From NCBI GenBank assembly GCA_025360965.1, contig JANYBC010000037.1, positions 1 to 64,000 of the forward strand: 64,000 nt of DNA, written 5' to 3'. The position numbers were made by a program, and so were the translations under genes. The first letter of the stretch is position 1; each line of letters starts with the position of its first letter. Positions 25,972 through 52,560 of this stretch are shown piece after piece. The notes under the pieces were generated by a model. It had not been told where the DNA came from. It saw only the letters and a list, made by a program, of their open reading frames with translations, and did no database searches. This DNA is from Anaeromyxobacter sp. GTDB lineage: Bacteria > Myxococcota > Myxococcia > Myxococcales > Anaeromyxobacteraceae.

Positions 25972-27750
25972 ATGGCAGCCAGGATCTTCAAGGGCGCGGA
26001 GTACCTCGTCACCGTGGCGACCAAGGACGAGGTCTTCGTCCCCGAGGACTTCACCGAGGAGCAGCAGGCCATCGCCGACACCGCCGACAAGTTCGTCCGC
26101 GAGGAGGTCTGGCCGGTCTACGAGCGCATCGAGCACCAGGAGCCGGGGCTGGCCATGAAGCTCATGGCCAAGGCCGGCGAGGCCGGGCTGCTCATGATCG
26201 ACGCGCCGGCCGAGTACGGTGGCCTCGAGCTCGACAAGGTCACCAGCGTCATCTCCGCCGACCGCATGGGGGCGGCCGGCTGCTTCTCTGTCTCCTACTC
26301 GGCCCACGCCGGCATCGGCACGCTGCCGCTCATCTACTACGGGACCAAGGCGCAGAAGGAGAAGTACCTGCCGAAGATCATCAGCGGCGAGTGGGGGGCG
26401 GCCTACTGCCTCACCGAGCCGGGCGCCGGCTCCGACGCCATGAGCGGCACCACCTTCGCCACCCTCTCCCCGGACGGGAAGCACTACCTGCTGGAGGGGA
26501 CCAAGCAGTTCATCACCAACGGCGGCTGGGCCACGCTCTTCACGGTCTTCGCCAAGATCGACCGCAAACACTTCACCGCCTTCCTGGTGGAGAAGAGCTA
26601 CGAGGGGGTCACCATCGGCCCCGAAGAGAAGAAGATGGGCATCAAGGGCTCCTCGACCACCACGGTGATCCTGGAGAACGCCAGGGTGCCGGTGGAGAAC
26701 GTTCTGGGCGAGATCGGCAAGGGGCACAAGATCGCCTTCAACGTGCTCAACGTCGGCCGCTTCAAGCTGGGGGCGGCGGTGACCGGCGCGGCCCGCGTCG
26801 CGCTCGGCGTCGGCATCGCCTACACCAACGTCCGCAAGCAGTTCGGCGTGACCATCTCCAGCTTCGGCGCCATGCGCGAGAAGATGGCCGACCGCAGCGC
26901 CGACCTCTTCGCGTCCGAGTCGCTGCTCTACCGGCTGGCCGGCATGATCGACGACCGGCTGGCCACGCTCGACAAGGCGGCGCCCAACTACTACGAGGCC
27001 TACCAGCAGGCCATCGAGGAGTACTCGATCGAGTGCGCCATCGCCAAGGTCTTCTGCTCGGAGATGCTGGCCGACGTGGTCGACGACGTGGTGCAGATGC
27101 ACGGCGGCTACGGCTTCACCCAGGAGTACAAGGCCGAGCGCTTCTACCGCGACGAGCGGATCAACCGGCTCTTCGAGGGGACCAACGAGATCAACCGCCT
27201 GCTCATCCCCGGCACCATCCTGCGCCGGGCCATGAAGGGGGAGCTGCCCATCACCAAGGAGGCGATGAAGGCGATGGAGGCGATGATGACGCCGTCGCTC
27301 GACGAGATCGACCCGTCGGTCCCGTTCGCCGCCGAGAAGATCACCCTGGCCAACCTGAAGCGGGCCTTCCTGGTGGTCTCGGGGGCCGCGGTGCAGCGGT
27401 ACCAGGAGAAGATCAAGGACGAGCAGGAGGTGCTGCTGGCCCTGGCCGACGTGGCCATCCAGATCTTCGCCATCGAGAGCGCCATGCTGCGGGCCGAGAA
27501 GGTCGGGCCGCGCCTCTCGGCCGAGCGCAAGGCGCTGGTCGACGCCGCCGTCAAGGTCTTCACCTTCGGCGCCGCCGAGCGGATCGCCTCGGCCGCCAAG
27601 CGGGCCGTCTTCTACGTGGCCGAGGGGGACATGGCCACCATGATGCTGGGCGGGGTGCGCCGCTTCACCAAGTACGACGCCTCCGGGCTGCTGGAGGCCA
27701 AGCGGGCCCTGGCGGCGGCCGCGGTGGCCGCCGACAAGTATCCCCTTTGA
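25972..27750 (+). CDS. fadE: Acyl-CoA dehydrogenase (FadE type, about 590 residues)
   Basis: This 592-residue FAD enzyme catalyses the first, alpha-beta dehydrogenation of beta-oxidation. It shows the acyl-CoA dehydrogenase signature AYCLTEPGAGSDAMSG, GTKQFITNGGWATLF, the flavin-binding IKGSSTTTVILENARVP, QMHGGYGFTQEYKAERFYRD, and the catalytic-Glu region RLFEGTNEINRLL. A C-terminal extension of about 170 residues beyond the core matches Bacillus FadE and VLCAD-like enzymes. GAGGGAGG precedes the ATG. It ends the operon; a strong hairpin repeat begins at its stop codon. Confidence 0.93.
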   Translation: MAARIFKGAEYLVTVATKDEVFVPEDFTEEQQAIADTADKFVREEVWPVYERIEHQEPGLAMKLMAKAGEAGLLMIDAPAEYGGLELDKVTSVISADRMGAAGCFSVSYSAHAGIGTLPLIYYGTKAQKEKYLPKIISGEWGAAYCLTEPGAGSDAMSGTTFATLSPDGKHYLLEGTKQFITNGGWATLFTVFAKIDRKHFTAFLVEKSYEGVTIGPEEKKMGIKGSSTTTVILENARVPVENVLGEIGKGHKIAFNVLNVGRFKLGAAVTGAARVALGVGIAYTNVRKQFGVTISSFGAMREKMADRSADLFASESLLYRLAGMIDDRLATLDKAAPNYYEAYQQAIEEYSIECAIAKVFCSEMLADVVDDVVQMHGGYGFTQEYKAERFYRDERINRLFEGTNEINRLLIPGTILRRAMKGELPITKEAMKAMEAMMTPSLDEIDPSVPFAAEKITLANLKRAFLVVSGAAVQRYQEKIKDEQEVLLALADVAIQIFAIESAMLRAEKVGPRLSAERKALVDAAVKVFTFGAAERIASAAKRAVFYVAEGDMATMMLGGVRRFTKYDASGLLEAKRALAAAAVAADKYPL

Positions 27751-27787
27751 TCGCGACGGCTCCAGCTTCTGGTGGAGCCGTCGCAAG
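27750..27787 (+). repeat. 38-bp hairpin repeat, copy A
   Basis: GCGACGGCTCCA (27753-27764) pairs perfectly with TGGAGCCGTCGC (27773-27784) around an 8-base loop, GCTTCTGG. It begins at the last base of the fadE stop. There is no T-run after it, so it is not a typical intrinsic terminator. A second copy at 28279-28316 is 34/38 identical and keeps the loop unchanged. Confidence 0.8.
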
Positions 27788-27818
27788 CCATCAGAACCGT
27801 CTCCTGCCTCGGCACCTG

Positions 27819-27835
27819 CCCCCCCCCCCCCCCCC
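27819..27835. repeat. Homopolymeric tract of 17 C
   Basis: An uninterrupted run of 17 cytosines lies 46 bases upstream of the TACATT -10 of the Imm8-like gene. Such tracts can change length by slippage and alter promoter spacing, and they are also prone to sequencing error. Confidence 0.85.
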
Positions 27836-27893
27836 GGACGCCACGCCCGGATGGCTCGGGCGGCCGGGGTGGCCCGCGCGCTACATTGGGTTG

Positions 27894-28259
27894 ATGCGTG
27901 CCCGCCTGAAGAGCCTCCGCTGCGACGAGATCGCCGACCTCGAGGCCTGGGTCCCGCCAGTGCCCGAGGAGTTCGCGCTCCCGCTGGTGCTGGAGGTGGG
28001 CGTGCTCGGCCAGCGCGGGCGGGAGCGGTTCGAGCTGCTGGTGGCCACGCCGCGCTGGCTGGAGCGGCGCCATGGCCGGCACGGCGCCGTCCCCGGCCGC
28101 GGCCTGCTGCTGGTCTTCGAGTGGAATCTGCCTCGCCTCAAGGCCTTCCTGGCCCGGGACGTGGAGCGGTGCACCGGCGAGACCTGGCCTGAGCTGGCGA
28201 GGCAGATCGGGCGGCTGGCCGAGTGGGAGGGCGGGGACAACGTGGTGGGCTTACGGTGA
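27894..28259 (+). CDS. Imm8-family immunity protein, orphan
   Basis: This 121-residue protein resembles the Imm8 immunity family: an N-terminal LKSLRCDEIADLEAW segment, a strand pair with VLEVGVLGQRGRERFELLVATPRWL, and a C-terminal helix ending with ETWPELARQIGRLAEWEG, close to the family's G-x-TW-x-E-x-A/WE pattern. These proteins protect against polymorphic toxins. No toxin-like gene lies next to it. TACATT (27882-27887) would start transcription exactly at the ATG, a leaderless arrangement. It sits between the two copies of a 38-bp hairpin repeat and after a C17 tract, in a pocket that looks inserted between fadE and the RIO kinase gene. Confidence 0.75.
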   Translation: MRARLKSLRCDEIADLEAWVPPVPEEFALPLVLEVGVLGQRGRERFELLVATPRWLERRHGRHGAVPGRGLLLVFEWNLPRLKAFLARDVERCTGETWPELARQIGRLAEWEGGDNVVGLR

Positions 28260-28278
28260 CTAGCCGCGGCGGCTTCCA

Positions 28279-28316
28279 ATCGCGACGGCGCCGGCTTCTG
28301 GTGGCGCCGCCGCAAG
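28279..28316 (+). repeat. 38-bp hairpin repeat, copy B
   Basis: GCGACGGCGCCG (28282-28293) pairs with TGGCGCCGCCGC (28302-28313) around the same GCTTCTGG loop. Relative to copy A one base pair has changed on both sides (T-A to G-C), one pair became G-U and one is mismatched. The same-strand orientation and conserved flanks mark it as a copy of a mobile or dispersed REP-like element. Confidence 0.8.
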
Positions 28317-28332
28317 ATCCGATAAGCAGCTC

Positions 28333-29433
28333 CTACCCGGGAGCAGATCCCCCGCCGCTTCCCCTCCGCCTCCTCCTCCGCTTCCTTCCCTGACCGGGTT
28401 CCGCCGGTGTACCGGCCTGGGGCGCGTGGGCCACCATCGGAGCCGCCTGCGCCCCCAGCACCGGCCTTCGCTCCACGACCGGGCCGCGCGGCTGCTGACC
28501 ACCGCGTCCGGGCTGGCGCTGCGGTCGCTGCTGCTGCGGGCGCTGCTGCTGAGGCCGGCCCAGCGGCGGGCGTGAAGGCTTGGCCGCCCGCTGCTGCTGC
28601 TGGCCGGTCCGCTGCTGTGGGCGCTGCTGGGGCGGTGGCCGCTCGGCCAGCGGCAGCTCGCGCCGGTCGATGGGCGGCGGCGGAGCTCCGGGGCGAGGAG
28701 GTGCCGGGACGAAATCCGGGGTCAACTCGCGCTTGGTGTAGGCGCGCCAGATCTCCCGGCCATCGCCGGCCGAGCCCTTGATGGCCGGATCGATCGCCTC
28801 GAAGTAGTGGCGCAGGTTGGCGAGGTCGCGGAAGAAGAACCCCTCGGCCTGGCTGTTGTGGGCCGCCCCGACCACCTGCGGGAAGTCGATGATGACCGGT
28901 CCCTCCCACCCGAGCAGGACGTTGTAGGCGGAGAGGTCGCCGTGGACCAGGTCGCAGCAGAGCATCTGGACCACCTGCGAGCGGAGCACGGCGTAGAGCT
29001 CCGCTGCCTGATCGCGTGAGACCTCGGCGTCGATGAGTCGCGGTGCCGGATGGCCGGAGGCGTCGAGCACCACCTCCATCAGCAGCACCCCCTCGTAGAA
29101 GAGCACCGGGCGGGGGACGCGCACGCCGGCGGCGTGGAGGGCGTGGAGGGCGTCGGCCTCCTTGGTCTTCCAGGCCTCCTCGGCGGCCGCTTGGCCGAAC
29201 TTGCTCCCCCGGTCCATGGCGCGCTGGGTCCGGCTGTTGCGGGTGCGCCGCCCCTCCAGGTAGGCCGAGTTGTTCTTGAAGGAGCGGGTCTCGCGCGCCT
29301 TGTAGACCTTGGCGGCCAGCACCGCCTGGCCCTGGCGCACCAGCCAGAGGTCGGCCTCCTTGCCGCTCTTGAGCCGCGCCACGACCTCGTCGATGACGCC
29401 GTCTACGAGCAGGGGTTCGAGGGGGTCGACCAT
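28333..29433 (-). CDS. RIO-type serine/threonine kinase
   Basis: This 366-residue protein has a RIO1-like kinase core: SGKEAD loop (23-28), AAKVYKARETRSFKNN with the conserved Lys, catalytic HGDLSAYN (164-171) and metal-binding IIDFPQ (181-186). Bacterial RIO proteins have no settled role; archaeal and eukaryotic ones act in ribosome maturation. From about residue 245 the sequence is a Pro/Gln/Arg-rich, low-complexity tail that ends in a poly-Arg cluster (GRKRRRRRRGS), suggesting nucleic-acid or ribosome binding. No clear Shine-Dalgarno precedes the ATG. Confidence 0.88.
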   Translation of the reverse strand: MVDPLEPLLVDGVIDEVVARLKSGKEADLWLVRQGQAVLAAKVYKARETRSFKNNSAYLEGRRTRNSRTQRAMDRGSKFGQAAAEEAWKTKEADALHALHAAGVRVPRPVLFYEGVLLMEVVLDASGHPAPRLIDAEVSRDQAAELYAVLRSQVVQMLCCDLVHGDLSAYNVLLGWEGPVIIDFPQVVGAAHNSQAEGFFFRDLANLRHYFEAIDPAIKGSAGDGREIWRAYTKRELTPDFVPAPPRPGAPPPPIDRRELPLAERPPPQQRPQQRTGQQQQRAAKPSRPPLGRPQQQRPQQQRPQRQPGRGGQQPRGPVVERRPVLGAQAAPMVAHAPQAGTPAEPGQGRKRRRRRRGSGGGSAPG

Positions 29434-29523
29434 GCGGGGCCCCCACGTCGTATTGGACCACGGGCGAGCGGTCAAGTTGCCACGCCGCCGAATCCTCGAC
29501 CGTGGACCAGGCTCCCATCCTCC

Positions 29524-51111: not shown

Positions 51112-52560
51112 GTGACTGATCTCCTCGCCAACCTCGAGCCCAAGCCCCTCTGGCGCTACTTCCTGGAGCTCTCGAAGATCCCCCGGGCCTCGAAGCAGGA
51201 GGCGGCCGCCGCCGCCTGGGTGGTCGCCCAGGCCAAGGCGCTCGGCTGCCAGGTGGAGCAGGACAAGGTCGGCAACATCCTCATCCGCAAGGCCGCCTCG
51301 CCGGGCCGCGAGGGGCGCCCGGCGGTGGTGATGCAGGCGCACGTCGACATGGTCTGCGAGAAGAACGAGGGGACCTCGCACGACTTCGCCAGGGATCCCA
51401 TCGCGATCCGCCGTGACGGCGACGTGCTGCGCGCCACCGGGACCACGCTGGGGGCCGACAACGGCATCGGCGTCGCCTCGGCCCTGGCGGTGCTGGCCGA
51501 TCCCGACCTGAAGCACGGCCCGCTCGAGGTGCTCATCACCATCGACGAGGAGACCGGCATGACCGGCGCCAAGGGGCTGGCCGGCGGCTGGTTCAAGGCC
51601 GGGATGATGCTCAACCTCGACAGCGAGGAGGAGGGTGAGCTGACCATCGGCTGCGCCGGCGGCATCGACACCGCCTGCACCCGCCGGCTCTCTCCCGCCG
51701 CGCCGCGCGCCGGCACCTCGGTCTTCCGGCTCAAGGTCTCGGGCTGCAAGGGGGGCCACTCCGGCATCGACATCGGCGCCGGGCGGGCCAACTCGCTGCG
51801 CCTGCTGGCCCAGGCGCTCGACCGGCTCATGGCCCGCTACCCGCTCGGCCTGGCCTCAGTGACAGGTGGCAACAAGCGCAACGCCATCGCCCGCGAGGCC
51901 TCGGCGGTCTTCTTCGCGGATCCGCGCGACCAGGCCGGCATCAAGGCCGACGTGGCCCGGCTCGACGCCGACTGGAAGGCGGCCTTCGGGGCCCTCGACC
52001 CCGGCGTGTCCATCGCCGTCGAGGCCGGCAGCGCCGAGTGGGCCATGTCGGCCGCCGACGCCCGCGCCGTGGTCGGGCTGCTGCTGGCCGGGCCGCACGG
52101 CGTCGAGGCCATGAGCCCCGACATCAAGGGGCTGGTCCAGACCTCCACCAACATGGGGCTGGTCGAGACCCGCGCCGGCGAGGTGGAGGTCAACTTCCTC
52201 ACCCGCAGCTCGATCGACGCCTCCAAGTACGCGCTGGCGGCCCGCATCGGGGCCATCGCCGCGCTCTGCGGCTTCGAGGCCAAGGACTCGAACGGCTACC
52301 CGGGCTGGAAGCCCGAGCCGGGCTCTGGCGTGGTCAAGCTGGTCCAGCAGGTCCACACCGACCTGTTCGGCAAGGCCATGGAGGTCAAGGCGATCCACGC
52401 CGGGCTCGAGTGCGGCCTGATCCGCGAGAACTACGGCACGGTCGAGATGGCCTCGATCGGGCCGAACATGTGGGACGTCCACACCCCGGATGAGCACGTC
52501 TCCATCCCGTCGGTGGCCAACTACTGGAAGCTGCTCAGGGCGATCCTCGAGAAGGCCTAG
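51112..52560 (+). CDS. pepD: Aminoacyl-histidine dipeptidase (M20 family)
   Basis: This 482-residue dinuclear zinc peptidase has ligand motifs QAHVDMVCEKNEGTSHDF, TLGADNGIGVA, DEETGMTGAKGL and LDSEEEGELTIGCAGG, plus C-terminal HAGLECGLI. It hydrolyses Xaa-His and other dipeptides in the cytoplasm. The start is GTG 51112. Length and all ligands match PepD. Confidence 0.95.
   Translation: MTDLLANLEPKPLWRYFLELSKIPRASKQEAAAAAWVVAQAKALGCQVEQDKVGNILIRKAASPGREGRPAVVMQAHVDMVCEKNEGTSHDFARDPIAIRRDGDVLRATGTTLGADNGIGVASALAVLADPDLKHGPLEVLITIDEETGMTGAKGLAGGWFKAGMMLNLDSEEEGELTIGCAGGIDTACTRRLSPAAPRAGTSVFRLKVSGCKGGHSGIDIGAGRANSLRLLAQALDRLMARYPLGLASVTGGNKRNAIAREASAVFFADPRDQAGIKADVARLDADWKAAFGALDPGVSIAVEAGSAEWAMSAADARAVVGLLLAGPHGVEAMSPDIKGLVQTSTNMGLVETRAGEVEVNFLTRSSIDASKYALAARIGAIAALCGFEAKDSNGYPGWKPEPGSGVVKLVQQVHTDLFGKAMEVKAIHAGLECGLIRENYGTVEMASIGPNMWDVHTPDEHVSIPSVANYWKLLRAILEKA

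Follow-up and report, generated by a model that had tools for sequence, protein, structure and literature searches.

A probable untagged REP-like hairpin family at the 3′ ends of genes in two congeneric myxobacteria

Results

The fadE-Imm8-RIO locus and its two hairpins

The stretch of DNA analysed here (the window) comprises 64,000 nucleotides of contig JANYBC010000037.1 from the Anaeromyxobacter sp. assembly GCA_025360965.1. A first-pass annotation had described two 38-bp elements in the same orientation which bracket a small gene, and direct reading of the window bore this out: the 38-mers ATCGCGACGGCTCCAGCTTCTGGTGGAGCCGTCGCAAG (27750-27787) and ATCGCGACGGCGCCGGCTTCTGGTGGCGCCGCCGCAAG (28279-28316) lie on one strand, are identical at 34/38 positions and have the 8-nt loop GCTTCTGG in common. 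The assignment of the small gene to Imm8 likewise held, as given in the feature list below, where the window's own genome (G000, 259 contigs) is compared with that of a congeneric sister (G003, a MAG).

25972..27750, + strand: fadE-type acyl-CoA dehydrogenase gene (Pfam Acyl-CoA_dh domains; sister protein 88% identical, at the same place)
27748-27750, + strand: TGA stop codon of fadE, abutting hairpin 1
27748..27806, + strand: hairpin element copy 1 (hairpin 1), beginning 2 nt past the fadE stop and consisting of TGATC, stem 27753-27764, loop 27765-27772, stem 27773-27784, AAG and a conserved tail; sister orthologue at L082:2109
27894..28259, + strand: Imm8-family immunity gene, 121 aa (Pfam PF15586, E 2e-31; same place in the sister, 93% identity)
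28260..28277, − strand: stranded remnant of the former RIO C-terminus (GSRRG and a TAG stop), severed by copy 2
28277..28335, + strand: hairpin element copy 2 (hairpin 2), consisting of CAATC, stem 28282-28293, loop 28294-28301, stem 28302-28313, AAG and the conserved tail; not in the sister
28278..28356, no strand: DNA inserted with copy 2, estimated extent 79 bp, with edges taken from the GCTTCC repeat on either side
28333..29520, − strand: RIO-domain kinase gene, start codon provisional; present stop (28333-28335) within the inserted tail of copy 2

Downstream of hairpin 1 and ahead of the Imm8 start codon, the window has a run of about 16 C residues (27821-27836), where the sister has a short, broken C-rich stretch; the run is possibly a length-variable tract, or else an assembly problem.

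Two of the four positions at which the copies differ constitute the T-A to G-C double change that the first-pass annotation had pointed out, while the other two convert an A-T pair of copy 1 to a G.T wobble and another to an A.C mismatch in copy 2. The fold of copy 1 was superior to that of 200/200 shuffled sequences (z -4.8), whereas copy 2 exceeded its shuffles only slightly (z -1.8), probably owing to its very high GC content, which is above that of copy 1. Because of the wobble, the mismatch and the slight advantage of the copy 2 fold, the pair by itself is weak evidence of selection on structure.

A dispersed and structured repeat family

The genome-wide covariance search proposed in the first-pass annotation was productive. 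A 32-mer pattern, with up to 3 mismatches allowed, matched 16 places in G000 as compared to 0 for the reversed-pattern control; a first covariance model, built on 14 copies, retrieved about 27 clear copies from the same genome, and a second, built on 44 copies, identified 27 copies in G000 and 21 in G003 at scores of at least 34 bits. The second model found no strong copy in 23 other genomes, the best match there scoring 30 bits, and R1/R2 matches below about 30 bits in other genera were treated as background. A looser pattern was present in 0/143 other genomes of the order, two incomplete congeners included, and an exact search with the 22-mer core across 84,980 species, in a scan that may omit the window's own genome, recovered only the sister's MAG, Myxococcales bacterium SKS1.bin67. 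Nothing in Rfam exceeded the gathering score, the best result being a sub-threshold 16-bit match to CcsR1. As searched, the hairpins form a small dispersed repeat family confined to a pair of congeneric myxobacterial genomes. A viral origin was also considered: the one exact occurrence of the 22-mer in IMG/VR falls within an open reading frame of a phage (GAGFWWRRF), where no stem continues past the 22-mer, and was taken as chance.

The consensus of the family is NAATC-GCGNCGGCGCCG-GCTTCTGG-TGGCGCCGNCGC-AAGATNCGAGNAGCNNCTC, and the complete unit of approximately 60-80 bp comprises (T/C)AATC, a 12-bp stem, an 8-nt GNNNCTRG loop, AAG and a tail resembling AYNCGAGNAGCGTCTCCT. The foot is mostly AATC, GATC or AGTC, and AAG stands on the 3′ side. 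Over the 44 copies, 96% of stem cells are paired, and double changes occur at 8/12 pairs. None of 500 shuffles reached any of five measures; such shuffle tests are inflated by kinship among the copies, but slid controls, which retain this relatedness, scored far lower. The first-pass description of the elements as REP-like is thereby substantiated, in that they belong to a dispersed palindromic family with family-wide covariation; with 27 and 21 copies located mostly at gene ends or between genes, the family falls within the REP superfamily in its loose sense, at a copy number that is low for a REP family. Most copies are single; inverted pairs, the mobile unit of REPINs and BIMEs, number three (C14 of G000; C16 and C2 of G003), and in these each copy ends its own convergent gene.

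The T-A to G-C change had been taken as a compensatory change indicative of selection for the structure. Pairing is indeed kept family-wide, but the T-A pair of hairpin 1 is already present in the sister's hairpin 1, and the difference therefore lies between old subfamilies and does not represent a change within one lineage. The stem of hairpin 2 is the commonest of the family, occurring in exactly this form at 8 other loci across the two genomes, and unrelated loci in each of them share identical stems.

Position relative to gene ends and stop codons

With gene ends called by a simple codon score, 38/44 copies lie within 60 nt of the end of a coding gene on the same strand. An opposite-strand gene end was found within this distance at 7 copies, each of which also has a sense gene end, so that sense-only copies number 31 and antisense-only copies 0 (sign test 9e-10). 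The hairpin starts exactly 2 nt past the stop codon in 15 copies, where stop and foot together read TAATC, TGATC, TAGTC, TAGCC or TGACC; in 4 copies the stop overlaps the first hairpin base, and in 2 it is the TAG of the loop. This register is no by-product of the model, as patterns free of the foot returned 27 copies, 23 with a gene end, of which 8/23 were at +2 (P ~2e-9 for a uniform offset). At L024, L030, L035 and L125 the reading frame runs on into the hairpin, which encodes the C-terminus of the protein, for example DRDGAGLWWRRRQT followed by the stop.

Turnover of copies between the two genomes

Flank searches traced 24 gene ends occupied in one genome to the other, where most are without a full copy and some retain a degenerate or half copy. 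Several sister sites without the element keep the stop at the same codon. Inspection of the sites by eye gave no consistent target-site duplication, and at most sites divergence of the sister's intergenic DNA prevented the insertion edges from being fixed. In the window, 52388-52560 is an unoccupied family site: this gene end has a hairpin in the sister (L124) and none here.

At orthologous sites occupied in both genomes the stem differs in 4/7 cases, by one to four double changes; the upstream flanks of these four are 89-92% identical where measured, and the tail also differs at 3/4. Independent point mutations would rarely give such differences, and replacement by another copy, re-insertion, or the copying of one arm from the other is likelier. 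As both genomes carry elements with different stems at some orthologous sites, presence there might be under selection and not neutral. Tandem copies of half an arm, for example CCAAGTCGCGGCGGCGCC, accompany full copies and would point to replication slips at the hairpin. At L017, L022, L028, L112 and L121, the full hairpin is separated from the stop codon (or gene end) by partial 5′-arm copies in tandem.

The repeats and the Imm8 gene

The proposal in the first-pass annotation that Imm8 had been brought in as a cassette, by the two repeats or between them, is contradicted by the fadE-RIO interval of the sister, in which the order fadE, hairpin 1, Imm8 and RIO is as in the window, without hairpin 2. 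A cassette of this kind would arrive together with the second repeat and leave a relative without the gene with one repeat, whereas G003 possesses the gene together with one repeat; with hairpin 1 as its only companion there, the gene did not come in along with the repeats or between them. Imm8 thus predates hairpin 2 in this interval, and hairpin 1, being common to both genomes, is older and predates the split of the two species. Hairpin 2 is a later insertion of approximately 79 bp into the last codons of RIO, within the convergent gap between Imm8 and RIO. Excision of the insert and one GCTTCC restores a RIO C-terminus ending in GQGRKRRRRRRGSRRG and a stop, matching that of the sister, whereas RIO now ends in GSGGGSAPG with its stop within the inserted tail, and beyond hairpin 2 lie the cut-off codons for GSRRG with the former TAG stop. 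The 6-bp GCTTCC repeat at the insert edges may be due to chance, as GCTTCC recurs nearby. The hairpins do bracket Imm8 in the window's genome, and in three other genera of the family the orthologous genes occupy different places, from which it follows that the gene reached or left this interval at some point, though not together with hairpin 2. Given that hairpin 2 breaks the RIO reading frame and marks no boundary of an Imm8 cassette, we regard insertion of the gene by the repeats as extremely improbable. Repeats on either side of a gene are consequently no proof that the gene has moved.

Discussion

The family described here is a variant of REP-like repeats which is real, structured, dispersed and dynamic. 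From the dispersal, the conservation of sequence and structure, the occupied and unoccupied sites, the polarity and the stop-codon register observed in the two genomes, we consider that the hairpins probably represent an untagged, non-autonomous REP-like family of approximately 60-80 bp, with 20-30 copies in each genome, of which one copy settled after fadE and another later entered RIO. New copies would arise in sense orientation at the 3′ ends of genes, typically right past the stop and often at 2 nt from it. It is a natural inference from REP biology that copies would move as a folded single strand, helped in trans by a host or mobile enzyme, and the gene-end bias would combine an insertion preference with survival where an insertion is least harmful. 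A likely side effect would be that a stable 3′-UTR hairpin beside the terminating ribosome protects the mRNA or tunes translation of the upstream gene. Such a family would be an untagged REP-like addition from the Myxococcota, for which filled as well as empty sites are available from a pair of related genomes.

Several known repeat systems invite comparison. GTAG REPs and REPINs with their RAYT (TnpA-REP) are alike in being short dispersed palindromes with a strand-defined foot motif and a location at gene 3′ ends, whereas the present family has neither a GTAG/GTGG tag nor a flanked RAYT and is distinguished by its 12-bp stem, conserved 8-nt loop, conserved 3′ tail of about 20 nt and strict sense orientation. 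CGTC REPs are palindromic and were found without a dedicated transposase, a feature in common with the hairpins described here, and have stems of 8-9 bp opening with A/T pairs, loops of 4-5 nt, a CGTC tag and a CCA tail (PMC3733652); the present hairpins differ in their 12-bp stem, 8-nt loop and absence of CGTC at the foot, and they share neither the opening A/T pairs nor the CCA tail. Untagged REP-like repeats are also known, for example from M. tuberculosis, D. radiodurans and Brucella (cited in PMC3733652), and these are likened to the present family by description, not by sequence, as hairpins without a terminal tag. The termini of GTAG REPs often supply stop codons (PMC3733652), and the tendency towards gene ends therefore has precedent; the fixed stop-codon spacing and the one-way polarity are the sharper part as compared to what is described for known REPs. 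A link to stop codon and strand that is sharper than described for these makes the question of whether copies were inserted there or kept there testable. That insertion itself, and not survival alone, is guided to the stop codon with sense polarity seems to us decidedly unlikely; it could proceed, for instance, through single-stranded DNA or RNA exposed during translation termination, or through a target site overlapping TRA-T, in which case one stem would replace another on the spot and foot, loop and site would remain unchanged.

The sense-only placement at gene 3′ ends and the stable GC-rich hairpin are also what would be expected of transcription terminators or other host 3′-end signals that act in place and resemble one another by function and not by mobile origin. 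Intrinsic terminators possess a U-tract, whereas no more than 3 T residues occur in the 10 nt after the hairpin in the 44 copies, and the hairpins are therefore not intrinsic terminators; furthermore, no terminator was called in the window, and at least 3 copies are followed further downstream by an ordinary stem-loop, GGCCCGCA...TGCGGGCC, and then by TTTT or a T-rich stretch. As loop, foot and tail are common to unrelated genes and missing at the corresponding gene ends of the sister, an origin as in-place 3′-end signals is very unlikely. It is highly improbable that the hairpins are instead parts of multicopy DUF222/HNH (13E12-repeat-like) genes acting as their vehicle. A family copy, sometimes degenerate, does lie 0.24-0.56 kb upstream of such genes on the same strand in 5/15 cases in G000 and 1/18 in G003, as compared to about 0.1-0.2 expected by our own estimate from copies per gene end, but for most HNH genes the shared sequence starts no further upstream than about -160 nt, short of the hairpins at about -300 to -560, and at the C213, L032 and L036 sites the hairpin is missing from the sister although the HNH gene, or what is left of it, is present. 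The DUF222/HNH genes are thus located downstream of six copies, above chance, yet are separable from the hairpin. The genes themselves (L187-L216; 15 matches in G000 and 18 in G003) encode products that are DUF222-like at the N-terminus and HNH-like at the C-terminus and that presumably resemble 13E12-repeat proteins.

A classic RAYT system, in which the genome itself encodes the REP-associated tyrosine (Y1/HUH) transposase that mobilises the repeats, would account for a strand-specific hairpin that has a short conserved 5′-foot motif and, at stem pair 4, often an A.C or G.T mismatch, as favoured by single-stranded DNA transposases. Y1_Tnp genes with the HUH motif are present, two in G000 and one in G003 (on C13), but GTAG/GTGG is absent at the foot, and the check for a RAYT proposed in the first-pass annotation came out negative: no Y1 locus of either genome is flanked by family copies, there being 0 copies on the contigs of the G000 Y1 genes and none near that of G003, with a small gap left by the fragmented assembly. 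The flanks of the G000 genes hold other repeats, and G001, with six Y1_Tnp hits, has no hairpins. Movement of the family by such a transposase is accordingly unlikely. The two IS200-like Y1 genes of G000 (L083 and L084, on C134 and C162) have a common upstream repeat, GACCGAGNGTTCCGCGG...GGTCCGCGG, which may be the true REP of these transposases.
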